NCBI GenBank assembly: GCA_013178165.1
Contig: JABLXG010000004.1
Location: 124,001 to 188,000, forward strand
DNA length: 64,000 nt
From: Anaerolineae bacterium
GTDB taxonomy: Bacteria > Chloroflexota > Anaerolineae > Aggregatilineales > Ch27
Direction of reading: 5' to 3'
Shown here: piece by piece, positions 653 through 51,222 of the stretch
How positions within the stretch are numbered: the stretch's first letter is position 1
Layout: every line of letters starts with the position of its first letter
Notes under the pieces: model-generated
The model's input: only the letters and a program-made list of their open reading frames with translations
Database searches by the model: none
Told to the model about the DNA's origin: nothing
Translations under genes and position numbers: made by a program

Positions 653-858
653 GGACTTCCGGACTTACACTACGCCTGTTAGCCAGAGTATAAACATCCC
701 GCCTTCCCTGCGCTATAGAAGCATGAGTAAAACAAGGACCAGGAAGGGGCGCGCCATGCTGCGCCCAGGATGGGCGGCCTCAGGCTCTGACTTGCAGAAT
801 CGGCGCGGGGCTGTAAGCTAGGCGTAGCGCAGTCCGGATGGCTGGATGGAGGGACGGG

Positions 859-1482
859 GTGGAGGAAGAACAGCACACGGATTACACCGGAGAGCCGGCG
901 GCAGGGCCGGACGAGCTGGCAAGCGGCCCGGTGGATGATGTCCTGGCCCGGCTGGACGGCTTACAGGAAGACCTCCGCCAGGGTCTGATCGCGCTCGGCC
1001 AGCGGCTGACGCGCCTGGAAAAACACTTTGAGACCAAGATTCTCTACGATCAGGCCAAAGATCAGACGATCGACGCGCTGCACCGCGAGTTGCAGGATTA
1101 CCGGGACGGGCTGCAATTCCAGCATCTGCGCCCGCTGGTCGCCGACGTGCTGACCATCTATGACGATCTATCCGCCGTTCTCGAACGGTTCGCGGCGCAG
1201 GCTCCGGAGGCGGCGTCGGAAGCCGTTGCTGGATTGCTTGAGCAGTTGTTTGCCCTGCGTGATGACCTGGGCGGGGCGCTGGAGAAGCACGGCTTCGAGC
1301 TGTACGAGCATCCCGGTGAGGTGGTTGATCGTGCGTTTCAGCGCGTCCAGGCGACCATCCCGACAGACGACCCGGCGCAGGATCGCATGGTCGCCCGCCG
1401 GTTGCGGCGCGGCCTGCGCTATGGCGAGCGTGTCATCCGCCCGGAGATCATCGAGGTGTATCGTTACGAATCGGGCCGCTGA
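859..1482 (+). CDS. GrpE-like nucleotide exchange factor
   Basis: About 207 residues. An acidic N-terminus is followed by a long coiled coil (roughly 25-90) and then the compact GrpE-type core, where HLRPLVADVLTIYDDLSAVL and the C-terminal GERVIRPEIIEVYRY strand resemble the GrpE beta-wing region. GrpE releases ADP from Hsp70. Sequence identity to housekeeping GrpE looks low, so this is probably a dedicated partner of the two Hsp70 genes immediately downstream. I chose GTG at 859 because a GGAGGG stretch lies 5-6 bases before it; an in-frame ATG at 838 is the alternative and would add 7 residues. The gene is 61 bases upstream of the first Hsp70 on the same strand, consistent with one operon. 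Confidence 0.7.
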   Translation: MEEEQHTDYTGEPAAGPDELASGPVDDVLARLDGLQEDLRQGLIALGQRLTRLEKHFETKILYDQAKDQTIDALHRELQDYRDGLQFQHLRPLVADVLTIYDDLSAVLERFAAQAPEAASEAVAGLLEQLFALRDDLGGALEKHGFELYEHPGEVVDRAFQRVQATIPTDDPAQDRMVARRLRRGLRYGERVIRPEIIEVYRYESGR

Positions 1483-1543: not shown

Positions 1544-3208
1544 ATGAGCGAGAAACACACGCCGATCTTCGGCATTGACCTGGGCACGACCTATTCCTGT
1601 ATTGCCTATGTGGACGAGTACAACCGGCCAACCGTGGTGCCCAACAGCGCCGGCGACCGCACCACGCCATCGGTCGTTCAGTTTGACGGTGATGAGCGGA
1701 TCGTGGGCAAAGAGGCCAAGAACGCCAGCCTGCTATACCCCGACACGACTGTCGAACTGATCAAGCGGGAGATGGGCAGCAAGGACTACACGTTCTACTA
1801 TCAGGGCGAGAAGTACACGCCGGAGGAGATTTCCTCATACATCATCCGCAAGCTGGTGCAGGACGCGGCGCAGTACACGGGCTACGACATCCGCGATGTG
1901 GTGATCACCTGTCCGGCCTACTTTGGCATTCCAGAACGAGAGGCGACCGCCCGCGCCGGGCAGATCGCCGGGCTGAACGTGCGCAGCATCATCAATGAGC
2001 CGACGGCGGCGGCCATCGCCTATGGCGTGCACGAACAGGCTGATCAGGTCGTGCTGGTTTACGATCTGGGCGGCGGCACATTCGACATCACCATGATCGA
2101 GATCAAGGGCGGCAACATCACCGTGATCTGCACCGATGGCGACCATTTTCTGGGCGGGCGCAACTGGGACGAGTTGATCGTGACCTACCTGGCCGAACAA
2201 TGGCAGCGGGAGACCGGCTCCAGCGAGGACCCGCTTGATTCGCCGGAAACGCTGCAGGACCTCTACCTGCGAGCGGAGCAGGCCAAGTACACCCTCACCC
2301 AGCGCGACCGGACGGATGTCAGCGTGGCCCATGCCGGCCAGCGGGCGCGCATCACCCTGACGCGGGAGAAGTTCGACGAACTGACCGAGCCGCTGCTCAG
2401 CCGTACGGTGGCGCTGACCCGCCAGGCGCTGGCGGAGGCCGCCCGGCGTGGCTATACCGCCTTTGACCAGCTCCTGCTGGTTGGTGGTTCCTCGCGGATG
2501 CCACAGGTCAGCCGGCGACTGGCGGCGGAATTCGGCATCGAGCCAAAGCTCTTTGAGCCGGACGAGGCCGTGGCCAAGGGCGCAGCGATCTTCGGCCAGA
2601 AGCTACTGCTCGACCAGGAGATCCGTATCCGTGTGGCGGAGGCGACCGGCGTCGCCCCGGAGGAGGTCGATGTCCAGGCGGCGGCCCCGCCGGTCGTCGA
2701 GGCCGTGCAGGAGGAGATCGCCCGCGATTACGGCCTGCAAATCGGCTCGGTCAAAAAGCAGGCCGAAACGCAGATCGTCAACGTCACCAGCCGCAGTTTC
2801 GGCGTGGTGGCCTGGTCGACCCAGTTGCAGGCGGAAGTGGTTAGTAATCTGATCCGGCGCAACGACCCGTTGCCCGCTTCCGCCACGCAGCGCTTCGGCA
2901 CCCGCGAACTGGGTCAGGCCACCGCCCTGATCCAGATCGTGGACAACCTTTCCACCAGCAGCCAGTACGAGCCGCCGCCGGCCAGCCGCCTGATCGCCGA
3001 AGCCGAGTTGCGCCTGCCGCCGGGCCTACCAGCCGGGTCGCCGGTGGAGATTACTTTTGACCTCAACGAGCAGGGTCGCCTGCACGCTCACGCCCGCGAA
3101 TTGACCCATGGTCAGGCGGTCGAGGTGGAGATCGAGACCGAACTGGGCGCGACCGAGGAGGAGATCGCGGCGGCGGAGCGCCGGGCCAGGTCCATCGTCA
3201 TCAGCTAG
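1544..3208 (+). CDS. Hsp70 family chaperone (DnaK-like), short
   Basis: A 554-residue Hsp70. The ATPase domain shows phosphate loop 1 (DLGTTYS, residues 12-18), phosphate loop 2 (YDLGGGTFD, about 171-179) and the adenosine motif (LLVGGSSRMPQ, about 310-320). A substrate-binding beta domain follows (SRSFGVVAWS onward, about 415-530). It stops about 60-80 residues short of typical DnaK, so the helical lid is mostly absent, ending in a short charged helix. A GAGGGG ribosome site precedes the ATG. It sits between a GrpE-like gene and an Hsp70-vWA fusion, a paralogous set separate from a housekeeping dnaK-dnaJ operon. ATP-dependent binding of client proteins in the cytoplasm is the family role; the clients here are unknown. 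Confidence 0.88.
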   Translation: MSEKHTPIFGIDLGTTYSCIAYVDEYNRPTVVPNSAGDRTTPSVVQFDGDERIVGKEAKNASLLYPDTTVELIKREMGSKDYTFYYQGEKYTPEEISSYIIRKLVQDAAQYTGYDIRDVVITCPAYFGIPEREATARAGQIAGLNVRSIINEPTAAAIAYGVHEQADQVVLVYDLGGGTFDITMIEIKGGNITVICTDGDHFLGGRNWDELIVTYLAEQWQRETGSSEDPLDSPETLQDLYLRAEQAKYTLTQRDRTDVSVAHAGQRARITLTREKFDELTEPLLSRTVALTRQALAEAARRGYTAFDQLLLVGGSSRMPQVSRRLAAEFGIEPKLFEPDEAVAKGAAIFGQKLLLDQEIRIRVAEATGVAPEEVDVQAAAPPVVEAVQEEIARDYGLQIGSVKKQAETQIVNVTSRSFGVVAWSTQLQAEVVSNLIRRNDPLPASATQRFGTRELGQATALIQIVDNLSTSSQYEPPPASRLIAEAELRLPPGLPAGSPVEITFDLNEQGRLHAHARELTHGQAVEVEIETELGATEEEIAAAERRARSIVIS

Positions 3209-3303
3209 CGGACACTCTGATCACCTGGCAGAGGGCGTCCGGCAGGGCGCCCTTTATGATCGGCTGCCGGGCGGGTACAATCGCTCGCGGAGGGGAGAGG
3301 CTT

Positions 3304-5397
3304 ATGGCGAAAGTGGTTGGCATTGACCTGGGGACGACATTTTCGGCGGTGGCGGCCATCGGCCCGGACGGGCGGCCGTTTGTGATTCCCAACGACGTCG
3401 GCGAGTTACTCACGCCGTCGGTGGTCGATCTGGGGGCTAACCCGCCACTGGTGGGCCGGGAAGCCAAACAGCGCCAGGAATTGGGCGATCCGGGCGTTTA
3501 CGCTTTCTTCAAGCGGGATATGGGCGACCCTAACGCCCTCTATATCGCTGGAGGACGGCAGTACACACCTGTTGATCTCTCCGCGTTGGTGCTTGCCTAC
3601 CTGAAGCGCTGTGCGGAGCGCTACCTGGGCGAGGCAGTGCGTGATGCAGTGGTCACCGTCCCGGCTTACTTCAACAATATGCAACGCCAGGCGACCATCG
3701 ACGCTGGTCGGCAGGCTGGGTTGAATGTCCTGCGCATTATCTCCGAGCCGACCGCTGCTGCCCTGGCCTATGGCATCCGCCCCACGGCGGAAACTTCGAC
3801 CGTGCTGGTCTATGACCTGGGCGGGGGGACGTTCGATATCTCGCTGGTGGAGATCGGGCCGGAAGCGCTACGGGTGATCGCCACAGCAGGCGATCATTAT
3901 CTGGGTGGCAAGGACTGGGACGACCGTATCCTGCGCTATCTCTCCAGCCGCTTCGAGCAGCAATTCGGCGTGGAGCTGATCGGCGATGACTTCAACGAGT
4001 TGCTGGTCAAAGCGGAGCAGGTCAAGATCGCCCTGTCGACGCGGGCCGCCGTGCGGGTGACCGTGCATGGCTCCGGGCGTAGCGGCACATATGAGATCAC
4101 CCGCGAGCAATTCGAAGGGCTAACCCACGACCTGCTGGCCCGCACCGAGCAGCTAGTCGAGCAGGTGCTGGATGACGCCGGGATGACCTGGGAGGCCATG
4201 GCTGGCGTGTTGCTGGTAGGCGGCTCGACGCGGATGCCAATGGTGCGCGACTATGTGACGCGCATGGCCGGGCGTCCGCCGATGGCCGGCGTTGACCCCG
4301 ATCAGGCAGTGGCTCTGGGCGCAGCTATCCAGGCAGCCATGGATCTGGAGGAGCGCCAGGGCGCTACGCCGACGCTATTGCTGGCCGGGCGCAAGGCGAC
4401 AGTGGATGTGATTAGCAACAGTCTGGGCATGATCGCCGAGAGCGCCGACCGCAGCTGTTACATCAACAGCATCATCATCCACAAGAATCAGCCGATCCCC
4501 TGCCAGCAGACGCGCCCGTACCGTCTGCGCGTCGGGAGGGCGGGAAAGGGCCGGCTGGAAGTGTACATGACCCAGGGCGAGGTCACCGATCCACAAGGCT
4601 GCGCTTACCTGGGTAAGTATGTCTTCTCCGGTTTCCCACGCCTGGCTTCTGATCACGCTGTGATCGACGTGACCTATGCTTACGATCGCAATGGTGTGGT
4701 GCAGGTCTCAGCGGTGGAGCGCAGCACCGGCCAGCCGCTGACGCTGGTCGTCGAGCCGCTGCCGCCCGATGTGCCCGCCCGCTTCCTGCGCCCGCCGGAG
4801 GATATGGTTGCGCCGGAGCACCTGACGCTGTACATGGCCTTTGATCTCTCCGGGAGTATGCTGGGGCGTCCGCTGCGTGAGGCCAAGAAAGCCGCCTACG
4901 GCTTCCTCAGCCAGATCGATCTGGCGTCGGCCTCGATCGGGTTGATCGAGTTCTCTGAGACGGTGCGGGTGAGCGTCCAGGCCAGCCAGAACGCTGCTGT
5001 GATCAGCAAGGGCATCGAGCGCATGAGTATCGGACGTACCGGCTGGAGTAATTTCGCCCACCCCTTTGATACGATCTATAACCTGCTGGCGGAGGTCGAC
5101 GGCAACCGCGCCGCGCTGGTGCTGGCGGACGGCGTGTGGATGCGGCAGGGGCAGGCGATCAAAGCGGCGCAACGTTGCCACGCGGCAGGCATCACGATCA
5201 TCGCCGTGGGCTTTGGCGAGGCGGATCGGGAATTTCTGCGGGCCGTGTCTTCCAGCGACGCGCTGAGCTTCTTCACCGATCTGACCACCCTGACGCATAC
5301 GTTCAGCACCATCGCCCAGGAGATCACCGAACGTGGCGGGCTGATCGATCCGGAGAGCATGCGGCTGCGCCGCGATCGATTGAATCTGGTCGATTGA
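3304..5397 (+). CDS. Hsp70-von Willebrand factor A fusion protein
   Basis: A 697-residue protein. Residues 1-380 form an Hsp70 ATPase domain (DLGTTFSAVAAIG near residue 7, YDLGGGTFDIS near 169, LLVGGSTRMPM near 304). Residues 385-500 look like a substrate-binding beta domain. In place of the helical lid, residues 508-690 form a vWA domain with an intact metal-site motif DLSGS (about 513), then the conserved GRTGWSN threonine region and ALVLADGVW. The fusion suggests that ATP-driven client binding is linked to metal-dependent protein adhesion. ATG at 3304 is preferred over the upstream start at 3256 because GGAGGGGAG lies just before it and the family begins at this point. It is last in the GrpE-Hsp70-Hsp70 run, with 95 bases to the preceding gene. 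Confidence 0.85.
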   Translation: MAKVVGIDLGTTFSAVAAIGPDGRPFVIPNDVGELLTPSVVDLGANPPLVGREAKQRQELGDPGVYAFFKRDMGDPNALYIAGGRQYTPVDLSALVLAYLKRCAERYLGEAVRDAVVTVPAYFNNMQRQATIDAGRQAGLNVLRIISEPTAAALAYGIRPTAETSTVLVYDLGGGTFDISLVEIGPEALRVIATAGDHYLGGKDWDDRILRYLSSRFEQQFGVELIGDDFNELLVKAEQVKIALSTRAAVRVTVHGSGRSGTYEITREQFEGLTHDLLARTEQLVEQVLDDAGMTWEAMAGVLLVGGSTRMPMVRDYVTRMAGRPPMAGVDPDQAVALGAAIQAAMDLEERQGATPTLLLAGRKATVDVISNSLGMIAESADRSCYINSIIIHKNQPIPCQQTRPYRLRVGRAGKGRLEVYMTQGEVTDPQGCAYLGKYVFSGFPRLASDHAVIDVTYAYDRNGVVQVSAVERSTGQPLTLVVEPLPPDVPARFLRPPEDMVAPEHLTLYMAFDLSGSMLGRPLREAKKAAYGFLSQIDLASASIGLIEFSETVRVSVQASQNAAVISKGIERMSIGRTGWSNFAHPFDTIYNLLAEVDGNRAALVLADGVWMRQGQAIKAAQRCHAAGITIIAVGFGEADREFLRAVSSSDALSFFTDLTTLTHTFSTIAQEITERGGLIDPESMRLRRDRLNLVD

Positions 5398-45324: not shown

Positions 45325-45975
45325 CTATGTGCAGATGACTGGTCTGATTCCATCGAGGCGCTCGATGGCCGCCAGCGGCAGGGCCACCAGCCGCGCCTCG
45401 GCGTGGTAGTCCAGCGCCAGTGTGGTCAGCGGCGGGACGCGCGGCCAGCCGCTCAACAGGCGCAGCGGTGGCGCAGTGGCGACCATCAGCACGATCGCCT
45501 CCATCACCTGCCAGTCGGCGATCCCGGTGTAGGGCGCGGCCAGGACGATCTGGCCGCCATTGCGGTGCGTTCCAGGTGCAGTGCGGTCAGCAATCTGCTT
45601 CCAGCGCCCCCAGGAGAGCCGTTGCCTGGCTTCGTCCCGGGCTGCCTCCGGCAGCATTGCCAGCCGCAGGGCCAGGGCGTCCAGGTAGTCGGCGGCGTCA
45701 AGGACGGTGATCTCCGCGCGGCGGATGCCCCGCCGGCCTGTTTCATCCTTCTGGTTGGTTACGATCACATCGGCCAGCGCTGCCTGGCGCCCATCCTCCA
45801 GCGGGAAGCCTTTGAGCGCCCGCGCACCGGGATAGTGGCGCCAGCCGGTACCGCGCGGCAGGGCATTCTGCCAGATGATCTTGAGCACCGCCGCATCCAG
45901 GCCGTCCACCTGCGTGGTGAAAGCGTAGCCGGGGTGCGGACCGTCTAGGACGTATTCCAGGATCAGGCGGGTCAT
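45325..45975 (-). CDS. GTPase-associated protein, GAP1-like
   Basis: A 216-residue protein. Its start (LILEYVLDGPHPGYAFTTQV then DGLDAAVLKIIW) and the GRRGIRRAEITVLD segment (about 80) resemble, by pattern only, the N-terminal domain of GTPase-associated protein 1 (GAP1-N), found with small or double GTPases in bacterial conflict-type operons. The rest is alpha/beta with LRLLSGWPRVPPL and no catalytic motif I can name. Its ATG overlaps the stop of the small GTPase gene (ATGA at 45972-45975), so the two are cotranscribed and probably interact. The GAP1 link needs a profile search. Confidence 0.5.
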   Translation of the reverse strand: MTRLILEYVLDGPHPGYAFTTQVDGLDAAVLKIIWQNALPRGTGWRHYPGARALKGFPLEDGRQAALADVIVTNQKDETGRRGIRRAEITVLDAADYLDALALRLAMLPEAARDEARQRLSWGRWKQIADRTAPGTHRNGGQIVLAAPYTGIADWQVMEAIVLMVATAPPLRLLSGWPRVPPLTTLALDYHAEARLVALPLAAIERLDGIRPVICT

Positions 45976-46709
45976 GTGCTGGCGGGCGGGGTAGCCGCTG
46001 GCTGGCGACGCGGGCGGGGACGGATGCCGTTGAAGAACTGGGTGAGGGTGCTGGTGACGCCCGCGCCGGTGATCAGGCTGGCGCTGGCGATGGCGTAGCG
46101 GTAGCCCAGACGCTCCGCCTGCGACTTGAGCCGTCGCGTCTCGTTGCGGTAATCGCCGAGCAACTCATCCAGCGTGCGGCTGCCGCTCCACAGGTCAGAT
46201 TTGTTCACCAGTAGCATGAACATCCGCAGGCTCTTGCGGGCGGCTGGTTCGTCGTCAATCATCTGCAGGACGAAGTTGAGCGCGTCCTTGTGCTGGTGAA
46301 CGTTGGTATGGTCGATCAAGAAGAGAATGCCGCGCGGTTTGGCCTCTCGGAACAGGTCCACCCAGTCGGTTTCCCACATGGCGTATTCCCCGCCGACATC
46401 GCGGCGTGGCCTGACGCGCAGGGTCTCGTCGCCGATCTGCGCTCCAAACGCGCCGACTGCCTGGCCGCCGGCTGCCGTCGGCTCGGGGTCGAAGTCGCCC
46501 AGGTAAGCCGTGTCGCGGCGCAGCCATTCCAGCAGGGTGGTCTTGCCGGTCTGGCGGTAGCCGAGCACGATGAAGGGTAGCCCCAGCACGCGGACATAGG
46601 CGAAGTCGATCACGCCCCCTACAGCGTTGCTGATCCCGCTGGGGACCAGACTGCCCAGCGTGCCAGTGATAATTGAAAGGATGCGGTCGCCCACGGTTTT
46701 CTGGCTCAT
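45972..46709 (-). CDS. Small Ras/Arf-like GTPase
   Basis: A 245-residue protein. Residues 1-45 are partly hydrophobic and may contact the membrane. G motifs: G1 GYRQTGKT (50-57), G3 DVGGEYAMWETDW (Asp-x-x-Gly, Arf-like DVGG), then GILFLIDHTN, G4 LVNKSDLW and G5 IASAS. The loop around G2 is RRDTAYLGDFDPEP. It belongs to the Arf/SRPRB-like side of the GTPase family. ATG 46709 is chosen (GCAGGCAG upstream); the frame extends to 46775 without support. First gene of the two-gene operon with the GAP1-like gene. Confidence 0.8.
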   Translation of the reverse strand: MSQKTVGDRILSIITGTLGSLVPSGISNAVGGVIDFAYVRVLGLPFIVLGYRQTGKTTLLEWLRRDTAYLGDFDPEPTAAGGQAVGAFGAQIGDETLRVRPRRDVGGEYAMWETDWVDLFREAKPRGILFLIDHTNVHQHKDALNFVLQMIDDEPAARKSLRMFMLLVNKSDLWSGSRTLDELLGDYRNETRRLKSQAERLGYRYAIASASLITGAGVTSTLTQFFNGIRPRPRRQPAATPPAST

Positions 46710-46874
46710 GTCTGCCTGCTTCCCGGTAAATCCGTGACTCGTACGGTGCTGTTTGATTCTACGCACAGCGTGCAACCCGGTTGCAGGATGGCAAATTACA
46801 CGGCATCCGGCAGCGGGAGCGCAGATGCCGTGTACTGGTATGCAGGTGATGAGTGGAACTGTTCGCCGGTCGCG

Positions 46875-48170
46875 TTACCCGCCAAAGAACTGCCGCAGTA
46901 CATTGCTGGCTAGCAGGCCGATGGTCATCAGTACCCCGGCTACCAGATGCAGCCGGATTGTGGCGGCGTTGGCCTGCACCAGGCTGCGATCAGCGTAGTG
47001 GCGCAGGGCAATGCGTACGGCCCGCACGGCCAGCGGCAACCCGCCGAGGATCAGCGCCGCGCCCACCGGAAAGACGCCGCTGATCGTCCAGTAGAGGGTC
47101 AGGATGAAGGCGCCTGCCAGCAGCAGCAAATAACCCCACCGGGCGCGCTCCTTGCCGAGGACGACGACCAGGTTGTGCTTGCCGGCTGCCCGGTCGCTCT
47201 CTTCATCCGGGAACTGGTTGATCCACAAAATGGCGATGACCAGCAGACCGATCGGGACCCCGATCAGAAAGTCGACTGCCGCCGCCTGGCCGGTCAGGGC
47301 GTAAACTGTCCCGGCGGTGGCCAGCGGGCCGAAGTTAAGGCCGACCAACAACTCGCCCAGACCGCGCCGCGCAGCCAGCCGCAGGGGCGGCGCTGTGTAG
47401 AAGTAGGCGGAAAGCGCCCCGATCAGCCCGAAGAGCAGGATACCGGGGCCGCTGAGAGCCGTCAGCACCAAGCCGATCAGCGCCGACCCGCCCAGGGCGG
47501 CGAAGGCCAGGCGGCGCAGTGCCCCTTCGCTGATCAGACCCAGTTCGATGGACCGGCTGCCGCCGGAGTAGGGCAGGAAGTAGTTGTTGTTGATCGGGTC
47601 GGTGCCGCTGGTCCAGTCGAAATAGTCGTTGAAGGTATTGGCGGCGACGTGCAGCAACATGCCGGCCAGCAGCGCCAGGACGAAACGCCCCCAGGCGAAC
47701 GGCCCCCCCTGCACCGCCACCCATGCCGCGCCGATCAACACCGGCACGATCATGGCCGTCAGGAACGGGGCGCGGGTGATGACCAGCCAGCGGAAGAGCC
47801 GCGTGGCCGGGCTGATGCGGGGCATGGCCTGCGCCGGGTCGATCTCCTCCAGTACTTCGGTCACACCGCAATAGCCGATCTGCTGGCCGTGTTTGTAGGT
47901 CGGCGTGATGCGGATGCGGGCGGCGAACGGCGTGCCGTCGCGACGCACAAAGACGGTCTCCCCGCGGAATTCACCCTGCTCGCGGGCGATCTTGAGCCAG
48001 GTCGGGACGTGCTCCAGGACTACTTCGCCTGGCGAGAACAGCGAGACCCGCTTCTTGCCGATGATGTCTTCCTGCGTGTAGCCGAAGATCTCCGCCGCAG
48101 CGGCATTGAATGTTTCGATGCGGCCTTCCAGGTCACAGGTGATCACACTTTTCTTTGAGCTGCTGCTCAT
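46875..48170 (-). CDS. PAS domain-UbiA prenyltransferase fusion (MenA-like)
   Basis: A 431-residue protein. Residues 1-110 are a PAS domain (ITCDLEGRIETFNAAAAEIF, GYTQEDIIGK, FRGETVFVRRDGTPF, YCGVTEVLEEID). From about 128 it is an eight- or nine-helix UbiA prenyltransferase with both Asp-rich motifs: NTFNDYFDWTSGTD (about 177) and NQFPDEESDRAAGK (about 318). These, with the YSGGSRSIELGLIS segment, are closest to MenA, which prenylates 1,4-dihydroxy-2-naphthoate for menaquinone; PAS modules are normally in signalling proteins. AGGAGGGC lies 9 bases before the ATG. The protoheme farnesyltransferase gene is 81 bases upstream on the same strand. Confidence 0.85.
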   Translation of the reverse strand: MSSSSKKSVITCDLEGRIETFNAAAAEIFGYTQEDIIGKKRVSLFSPGEVVLEHVPTWLKIAREQGEFRGETVFVRRDGTPFAARIRITPTYKHGQQIGYCGVTEVLEEIDPAQAMPRISPATRLFRWLVITRAPFLTAMIVPVLIGAAWVAVQGGPFAWGRFVLALLAGMLLHVAANTFNDYFDWTSGTDPINNNYFLPYSGGSRSIELGLISEGALRRLAFAALGGSALIGLVLTALSGPGILLFGLIGALSAYFYTAPPLRLAARRGLGELLVGLNFGPLATAGTVYALTGQAAAVDFLIGVPIGLLVIAILWINQFPDEESDRAAGKHNLVVVLGKERARWGYLLLLAGAFILTLYWTISGVFPVGAALILGGLPLAVRAVRIALRHYADRSLVQANAATIRLHLVAGVLMTIGLLASNVLRQFFGG

Positions 48171-49351: not shown

Positions 49352-50805
49352 CACGGCTGTTGCAAAGTTGTCAGGGAGGAGCCAGAAGCAGGTCAAGCGC
49401 CAGGTCGAGCCGAGCATTGAAGAAGCGGCGTGCTTGGGGAATGAAGTCGAACTTCAACAACCGGATGAGCCCCAGGGTCAGATTGTTGAGGATCGCCATG
49501 ACATGAGCGGCGCAGCCCGTCTTTAAGCGACAGCGGTCTTCCTTGAAGGTCACATCACGGGAGTAATGAGCCTCGTTTTCGATTCCCCAATGACGACGGA
49601 CCAGGTGAAGGAGGCGGTTCGGCGAGGCCTGGGCGCGAGAGAGACTGGTTACGCCGTAGACGACTTCATAGGTGAGGTGGCCACTGCGGAGGGTGAGGGT
49701 TTGCCGTTCAAGCTGGAACACCTGAGCCAGATGGGGCCACTGGCTGTAGCCCTGGAGCAGGCTGCTGGCCGTCAGAGTACGCCGTTCCAGCCGCCCATGC
49801 GCTTTGTCCAGGGTGCTGGCACGGGCGAAATCGACGGGCAGCGGGCCATGGCCTGGCAAGCAGCTTTCGGGGGCAAACAGGCGCTCGAGGTCCGCCAGCA
49901 AATGCGGCTGGTTGTCCTTGACGATCTACAGATAGTTTCCCCCTGCCGCCACTATCTGGCTCGATAAGCTCCGCTGAGCCAACAGGGCATCCCCACTCAC
50001 CACGGCATCGTGCAAGTCCAGACTGGCCAACAGCGCAGGGGCAACCACAATTTCGTTTTCCTTGCTGGCCACTGCACTTTGTCCCACCACGACCCCCACC
50101 GCTGGCAGATAGGCAGCCAGCAGATGCACCCCTTGGGTGTGTCCTGGCTCGATCGTCCCCCGCATGGCTTTGCCGTCCAGCGCAATGTGAGCCTCGGCCG
50201 GCTGGTGGCGGCTGAAGTATTCCCGTACCACCGCCTCGAACTGCTCCACCTCCACCGCCTGCCCTATAATCCGACTGTAGGTCGTGTGATGGGGCATGCT
50301 CTCCCGTTTGAGCCCCAGCGCCTTCGCCAAGAGCTTGGCCCGCCACTTCGCCCACTCCGCTATCCCCCGCGCTTCATCTTCTCCCGAAAGCTTGGCTAAC
50401 ACCATGATCATCAGCACCGCCGCCAACGGATAGCGTACCCCGCGCCGGTCCCGCCGATCCTTTAACTCCTTCAGTCGCTCATAGAGCCCGCCTACCTCCC
50501 CGCAAAGTGCCTCTATCTGTCCGCTTCCGGCTATGGTATAGTCCATGTTGACCTTTCCTGGTGCAGGGTTCGTGGCGCACAACACTACCTTAACCAGGAA
50601 AGGCCTTTTTGTCTTGGAACTTTGGGTACTGTATCCTTTTCGGTTGAAATTCGTGGAATGGTTTTCATGTTCCTGCAACAGAATGAAGTCGCGTGTCATT
50701 TTGAGAGAAAATACACATGCGATTTGGTGCTTAGATGGGCAACCTTCAACCGGCATCTGAATTTCAACCGCGAAAGATACACTACCGGACTTTGCAACAG
50801 CCGTG
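49352..50805 (-). mobile_element. ISAs1-family insertion sequence (1454 bp)
   Basis: Perfect 17-base terminal inverted repeats (CACGGCTGTTGCAAAGT at 49352-49368 and its complement at 50789-50805), 10-base target duplication, one transposase gene on the minus strand. Size and duplication length fit the ISAs1 family. The 240 bases between the transposase start and the right end are non-coding. Confidence 0.9.
49371..50546 (-). pseudogene. ISAs1-family DDE transposase with an internal stop codon
   Basis: From ATG 50546 (MDYTIAGSGQIEALCGEVGG) the frame covers the ISAs1 transposase: YPLAAVLMIMVLAKLSGED, catalytic Asp in IALDGKAMRG, second Asp in VVSGDALLAQR, and Glu in WGIENEAHYSRDVTF. At 49926-49928 an in-frame TAG replaces the conserved Trp codon of the GGxYLWxVKDNQP motif; the frame resumes unchanged to 49371. 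One G-to-A change explains it, so the element is probably immobile unless supplied in trans. An upstream extension of the frame to 50756 runs through IS non-coding sequence. Confidence 0.9.
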
Positions 50806-50826: not shown

Positions 50827-51222
50827 TCAAGGATACACGAAATCTTTCAGGTGAGCCGGGTAAGCCGGGAACTGGCGTTTGAATAACTGGCGGCGATTCC
50901 AGGCAAACACAAACAACTTGATGGAACGCCAGAGGGCGTGAATGCACCGAGAAAAGCAACGCGACTTACGCGCCAGTCGCGCCAGATAGTGACGGAGTTC
51001 AGCATTGTCCGCTTCAACGGAATAGGTCTGGCTCTTGTCGGTCAGGGCCTGATGACGACCGGGATAGTACACCAGTGTGTGATAGGTTGAGAAGTCGTCC
51101 GAATAATACCGCCGGGCCTGAGGATTACGGTCGAGCATGGCTTGCAGCGCCTCTGTGCTCCTTTCCCAGACCACATCCCAGCCGACAATGCAGCGACTGG
51201 CTCGGTCGACCTGGGTGATCAC
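50827..51222 (-). CDS. IS1 InsB-like transposase frame (reached by -1 frameshift)
   Basis: 131 residues (from GTG/ATG 51222) including the IS1 DDE-type segment: YYSDDFSTYHTLVYYPGRHQ, SYSVEADNAELRHYLARLAR and the C-terminal NRRQLFKRQFPAYPAHL. It has no ribosome site. It joins InsA in the -1 frame at AAAAAAAC (minus strand of 51232-51239), the usual IS1 slippery site, giving RKKNVVYVITQVDRASRCIV. Because InsA upstream is itself frameshifted, a full InsAB' is probably not made. Confidence 0.85.
   Translation of the reverse strand: MITQVDRASRCIVGWDVVWERSTEALQAMLDRNPQARRYYSDDFSTYHTLVYYPGRHQALTDKSQTYSVEADNAELRHYLARLARKSRCFSRCIHALWRSIKLFVFAWNRRQLFKRQFPAYPAHLKDFVYP

Follow-up and report, generated by a model that had tools for sequence, protein, structure and literature searches.

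The window, the whole stretch of 64,000 nucleotides analysed here, covers positions 124001-188000 of contig C4 in a 4.2-Mb genome. Two genes on its minus strand are the subject of this analysis:

45972..46709, minus strand: GTPase P0002, 245 aa, ATG start
45325..45975, minus strand: partner P0001, 216 aa, ATG start
45972..45975, minus strand: ATGA overlap of P0002 and P0001, 4 bp

A first-pass annotation of this DNA had reported two overlapping genes, and both open reading frames were found at these coordinates, with a 4-bp overlap that is consistent with translational coupling. For P0002, the ORF finder favours a TTG at 46775, upstream of the ATG at 46709; we placed the start at 46709 because the MSQKT encoded there equals the MSQKT or MTQKT starts of close relatives. 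Compared with the genus-mate, dN/dS is 0.013/0.341 (approximately 0.04) for the GTPase and 0.042/0.419 (approximately 0.10) for the partner, indicating that both genes are real and under purifying selection.

When genes were clustered across 31 neighbourhoods, the GTPase and the partner were the only widely common genes, and the next clusters (an antisense-type ORF set and house-keeping genes) reached at most 5 loci each. The immediate neighbours are commonly divergent or unrelated and differ at nearly every one of 30 loci; in the window, they include a UbiA-like prenyltransferase and RarA, both named from sequence. No conserved third gene, effector, zinc ribbon, FNIII, or GASH was found beside the pair in the 30 loci. 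The minimal two-gene form proposed earlier therefore holds, since only the GTPase and its partner are conserved across these loci, and the search for effector genes accompanying the homologues returned none that is conserved. On the strength of these neighbourhoods, we rejected a defence-island reading.

Several other features lie near the pair or its homologues. At 46875-48170 on the minus strand, the window encodes a 431-aa protein in which a PAS-like N-terminus is joined to a UbiA-family prenyltransferase-like membrane protein, an unusual fusion that is also present in the genus-mate (L055). The minus-strand segments 49371-49901 and 49926-50756, approximately 2.7 kb from the pair, resemble one transposase split by a frameshift or stop, and an additional transposase-like ORF lies at 50827-51222. 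Near one homologous pair, and at no other locus, TIR-like (643 aa) and caspase-like (488 aa) proteins are encoded (L059:8775-12371).

P0002 contains the P-loop GYRQTGKTT, the switch I sequence PTAAGG, the G3 motif RDVGGE, and the G4 motif NKSD. Across 28 homologues, the motifs G1 GxRQTGKTT, G2 PT(A/S)xGG, G3 RDVGGE, and G4 NKxD are invariant or nearly so. G1, the G2 Thr, G3 DxxG, and G4 NKxD occur together in one G domain, which by a small-GTPase motif criterion requiring a G-domain span of 170-200 aa identifies an Arf/Sar/Rag-like small GTPase. Profile searches agree with the Ras/Arf type named in the first-pass annotation. The Pfam Arf profile matches 26 of the 28 family members (best E 2.5e-8) and the Gtr1_RagA profile matches 3 (best E 7.7e-6); P0002 alone scores 20.0 bits against the Arf profile, under the 22.3-bit cut-off. 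A PDB search with the GTPase profile matched IFT22 and SAR1. ARF1 is the top Foldseek match of the P0002 AlphaFold model (E 2.4e-6), which has a mean pLDDT of 69 and is confident except in the N-terminus and the switch I/interswitch region. A PADLOC match to RtcR covers 31 residues and is restricted to the P-loop region, and an RtcR identity was rejected.

In Arf and Ras GTPases, the catalytic Gln directly follows DxxG (DVGGQ). All members of the present family carry an invariant Glu in its place, E108 in P0002. A Glu at this position of G3 is also found in the two DO-GTPases of the same genome (YDGAGE and FDTAGE, compared with RDVGGE in P0002). The DO-GTPase profile (Pfam, E<=1) matched none of the 28 members, nor the diverged L117 sequence, which speaks against DO-GTPase membership; the genome's own DO-GTPases do match it. 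Likewise, the proposed membrane N-terminus was not upheld. The first approximately 35 residues are uncharged to hydrophobic, and no transmembrane segment was seen in the N-terminus; the tested windows in residues 1-40 have a mean Eisenberg hydrophobicity of at most 0.23 and hydrophobic moments of 0.12-0.32, and residues 1-34 are unresolved by AlphaFold. In a survey of small GTPases from prokaryotes, MglA and Rup are the only families set apart (PMC4316618).

Searches of P0001 against Pfam, NCBIfam, and PADLOC profiles matched no family. Among 29 partner proteins, a single homologue (L073) matches the Pfam GAP1-N2 profile, with E=0.0011 and 19.5 bits against a cut-off of 24; its residues 12-94 align in register to profile positions 16-102. 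The partner family and GAP1-N2 share a GY or GF near the N-terminus followed approximately 60 residues later by D-E-x-G-R-x-G, which occupies residues 77-83 of P0001 at the spacing common to GAP1-N2. This spaced motif is present in 28/29 partner proteins, 12/20 GAP1-N2 proteins, and 0/289 background genes of the same neighbourhoods; it was picked after viewing the alignment and so counts as support for GAP1 kinship rather than proof. When the diverged L117 protein is counted in, the family keeps a single invariant Arg (R81) and a single invariant Lys (K55), both in P0001 numbering. P0001 stops at 216 aa, after its GAP1-M-like part, and is without GAP1-C.

More sensitive comparisons gave mixed results. 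With hhalign, the partner family aligned in register with the Chloroflexota GAP1-N2+M proteins at E 0.03-0.14; column-shuffled controls surpassed this result in 26/200, 10/150, and 7/150 runs, and we therefore do not take the match as proof. In a single-HMM ranking of approximately 4000 ORFs, the partner proteins did not rise, with the exception of L117, which comes directly below the true GAP1s (E 0.029, GAP1 N+M model built from 6 sequences). Smith-Waterman scores gave a family mean only about 1 standard deviation over shuffles. Searching PDB sequences with the profile of the partner family found nothing, and the Robl_LC7 profile matched none of the 29 members. The GAP1-N assignment of the first-pass annotation thus stands in part: the L073 match and the shared motif support it, whereas P0001 itself matches no profile and the profile-profile signal does not exceed the shuffles. 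Judged by sequence, the partner represents a protein family outside those in Pfam, NCBIfam, and PADLOC that faintly resembles the GAP1 domain of conflict systems.

The AlphaFold model of P0001 has a mean pLDDT of 93 and a pTM of 0.90. The element order of longin domains is b1-b2-a1-b3-b4-b5-a2-a3. In the model, the N-terminal domain has the longin-like order b-b-a-b-b-b-a-a(a) (DSSP: E2-9, E16-19, H28-37, E52-58, E64-72, E85-93, H94-107, H110-119, H122-132). The C-terminal a/b half consists of a strand (143-147), a helix (152-166), the sequence LTTLAL, and a strand (196-200), and its element order parallels that of GAP1-M, as read from the GAP1-M sequence only. No Foldseek match in the PDB reached E<=0.001, and the TM-scores are at most 0.40; the longin superpositions also have a large rmsd. 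The best match is TagF (9t0n; probability 0.92, E 0.011, TM-score 0.26), followed by the longin domains of Lst4 (probability 0.80, TM(target) 0.40) and FNIP2 (probability 0.75, TM(query) 0.29), and several PAS domains are also among the weak matches. Foldseek against viral structures found nothing. Longin domains resemble PAS domains in fold, with two helices lying on the far side (PMC3521125), and longin and roadblock (MglB) domains have a GTPase-binding mode in common (PMC3521125, PMC10933270); for these reasons, a diverged longin might yield such a mixed list of PAS and longin matches. For the predicted N-terminal domain, a longin/PAS-like fold is most likely and a distant relationship to GAP1-N2 is probable; a GAP1/longin kinship of the partner is plausible.

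We then ran the partner and GTPase profiles on 154 genomes of the order Aggregatilineales (Chloroflexota, Anaerolineae). Each protein was found in 44/154 genomes, essentially in single copy, and both were found in 43, that is, in 43/45 genomes carrying either. The exceptions are G744 (75% complete), with the partner only, and G678, with the GTPase only. The matches are confined to three families of the order, and the relatives found in a named collection are almost all Aggregatilineales, Anaerolineae, or Chloroflexi MAGs. The absence of the pair from 109/154 genomes indicates that the lineage can do without its process. In nearly all loci the two genes lie side by side, with a spacing that ranges from overlap to a few hundred bases and is mostly an overlap or a few bases. 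At L080 of genome G223, they are unlinked and both retained, the partner on C112 and the GTPase mid-contig on C108. Homologues occurring only as unrelated single genes would have told against a two-gene module; the pair stays together.

Beyond the order, one additional partner was found in 400 genomes of the phylum, in G609 from another order of the class; it is 31% identical to P0001 and adjoins a GTPase that is 33% identical to P0002, so that the two form a diverged pair. No other genome among the 251 searched in that order yielded the partner, and 226 genomes of the phylum yielded no further GTPase family member. The GTPase and partner distance matrices are correlated (r=0.87; 0/2000 permutations reach it), as is also expected from shared ancestry alone. 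Searches of plasmids and phages did not match the partner, and searches of plasmids did not match the GTPase; to this extent, a mobile-element reading was rejected for each. The restricted distribution together with the diverged G609 pair shows that the pair is rare, old, and mostly vertically inherited.

A full canonical GAP1-N2 system is located approximately 50 kb from the pair, at C4:116022-129397 (= L019:4022-17397). The components that fall in the window are as follows:

start at 652, minus strand: FNIII-type/zinc-ribbon protein (FNIII named from sequence)
838-1482, plus strand: GrpE-like protein, named from sequence
1544-3208, plus strand: HSP70, named from sequence
3256-5397, plus strand: HSP70 fused to a vWA-like region (HSP70 named from sequence)

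This system also includes two DO-GTPase2 proteins and a GAP1 (N2+M) of 845 aa at L019:5824-8361, mostly just outside the window. It shares the HSP70 theme of the systems described by Kaur et al. 2020 (PMC7159879). In other Chloroflexota (L036, L037, L038, and L039), GAP1-N2 reading frames of 304-393 aa comprise N+M and leave no room for GAP1-C, which shows that trimming does happen in bona fide GAP1. These short proteins adjoin FNIII-like proteins or a DO-GTPase, and three of the genomes have a second, longer GAP1 approximately 5-7 kb off.

To our knowledge, a dedicated partner is known for few small GTPases of bacteria: those of MglA-MglB, of the actinobacterial conservons, and of DO-GTPase-GAP1. 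The pair described here is real, coherent, and uncatalogued. It is probably a lineage-specific, vertically inherited, dedicated GTPase switch with its cognate regulator, found in three Aggregatilineales families. By analogy, it is best read as working like MglA-MglB, or like DO-GTPase-GAP1 minus the effector half. The Arf/Rag-like GTPase would cycle between GTP and GDP, and the partner would bind it and set its state. Our best guess is that the partner stimulates hydrolysis; alternatively, it may act as a GEF or an effector-scaffold. Outside help for hydrolysis is plausible because the GTPase is without the catalytic Gln. R81, the sole invariant Arg of the partner, located in D-E-x-G-R-x-G, would be the first catalytic or contact candidate. 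The pair probably serves a positional or membrane-linked house-keeping process, like MglA-MglB, and not the killing of invaders. The genes, their motifs and selection, the co-occurrence, the linkage, and the lack of conserved neighbours are results of the analysis; we infer the direct GTPase-partner binding, the direction of regulation, the name of the fold, and the cellular role.

On the best reading, the pair is not an immunity island. The immunity or conflict role considered earlier is unlikely, since 30 loci contain no conserved third gene or effector, the genes are single-copy with a vertical-type distribution, and the partner is absent from plasmids and phages. A specific form of it, which we consider improbable, is a reduced DO-GTPase/GAP1 immunity system in which GAP1 has been trimmed to N+M and the effectors are encoded elsewhere in the genome. 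The L073 match, the common D-E-x-G-R-x-G, the collinearity with GAP1-N+M, the DxxGE of G3, the N+M-only GAP1 proteins of other Chloroflexota, and the canonical cluster in the same genome all fit such a reduction. However, it is opposed by the 0/28 DO-GTPase matches, the failed profile-profile test, and the lack of zinc ribbon, FNIII, GASH, or conserved effector at 30 loci, in addition to the inheritance pattern just given.

The pair might instead be a polarity or motility module, the lineage's functional MglA-MglB in which a longin-like partner replaces the roadblock protein. This account also has a low probability. The two-gene switch/regulator layout, the Arf-like GTPase, the longin-order fold of the partner, and the GTPase-binding mode shared by longin and roadblock domains (PMC3521125) agree with it. 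Against it, genes for pili, gliding, or chemosensing are not conserved next to the pair, Robl_LC7 matches no member of the partner family, and the GTPase has the G3 Asp where MglA has Thr78 (PMC3000849). Finally, it is very unlikely that the partner, as an enzyme or structural protein, only has an operon in common with the GTPase and acts in one pathway without contacting it: retention of both genes when unlinked would also be explained by a shared pathway, and the partner fold is assigned without confidence, but the overlap or few-base spacing at most loci, the near-perfect co-presence, the lack of any enzyme-like signature or profile match, and weak resemblances that mostly point to GTPase partners argue against it.

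Returning to the preferred reading of a dedicated switch and regulator, a broader proposal is possible but doubtful: that the partner family and GAP1-N2 form one superfamily of bacterial longin-type GTPase regulators. This pair would then be the most basic, independent version of that superfamily, an Arf/Rag-longin switch of bacteria, and the addition of effectors would have elaborated DO-GTPase/GAP1 conflict systems from it, or to it. The pair is a new effector-free combination of a GTPase and a partner that belongs to none of the catalogued families searched, yet is longin/GAP1-like in look, and it bears on whether bacteria have longin-type GTPase partners. If the GAP1 link is true, it offers a small, tractable pair for learning how GAP1-N acts on a GTPase.

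Among known systems, TagF, a type VI secretion accessory protein, heads the Foldseek matches of the partner (9t0n), but its TM-score is 0.26 and the pair has no type VI secretion context, as no neighbour of any kind is conserved. The GTPase resembles Rag/Gtr and Arf/Sar proteins in matching Arf and, in 3 members, Gtr1_RagA, and the weak structural matches of the partner to Lst4 and FNIP2 longin domains recall FLCN-FNIP (Lst7-Lst4). Unlike Rag-FLCN-FNIP, the pair is bacterial, without DENN domains or a heterodimeric Rag pair, and its structural scores are too low for membership. With MglA-MglB, it shares the two-gene GTPase/regulator layout, and the longin-like fold is related to that of roadblock domains, both being GTPase-binding (PMC3521125). 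MglA is without the usual G3 Asp and has Thr78 instead (PMC3000849); P0002 has the canonical Asp with DVGGE and is therefore not an MglA, and its partner, which is not Robl_LC7, has an additional half at the C-terminus.

Kaur et al. 2020 (PMC7159879) characterise GTPase-centric conflict systems by a DO-GTPase, a GAP1 with three domains, an FNIII or GASH component, and effectors that vary; the families compared here were PF19993 and PF19975 (DO-GTPase), PF20013 (GAP1-N2), and PF20014 (GAP1-M). Unlike in these systems, the GTPase is unrecognised by the DO-GTPase profile and is without zinc ribbons, and the 216-aa partner has no GAP1-C; the pair has no FNIII/GASH component and no effectors and is single-copy and vertically inherited. 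Like them, the pair has a dedicated partner gene behind its GTPase gene and DxxGE in G3, and the partner has D-E-x-G-R-x-G at equal spacing, the match of one family member, L073, to GAP1-N2 (E=0.0011), and the N + M element order of GAP1. By analogy, the pair may work like the DO-GTPase/GAP1 core, yet we do not place it in that class.
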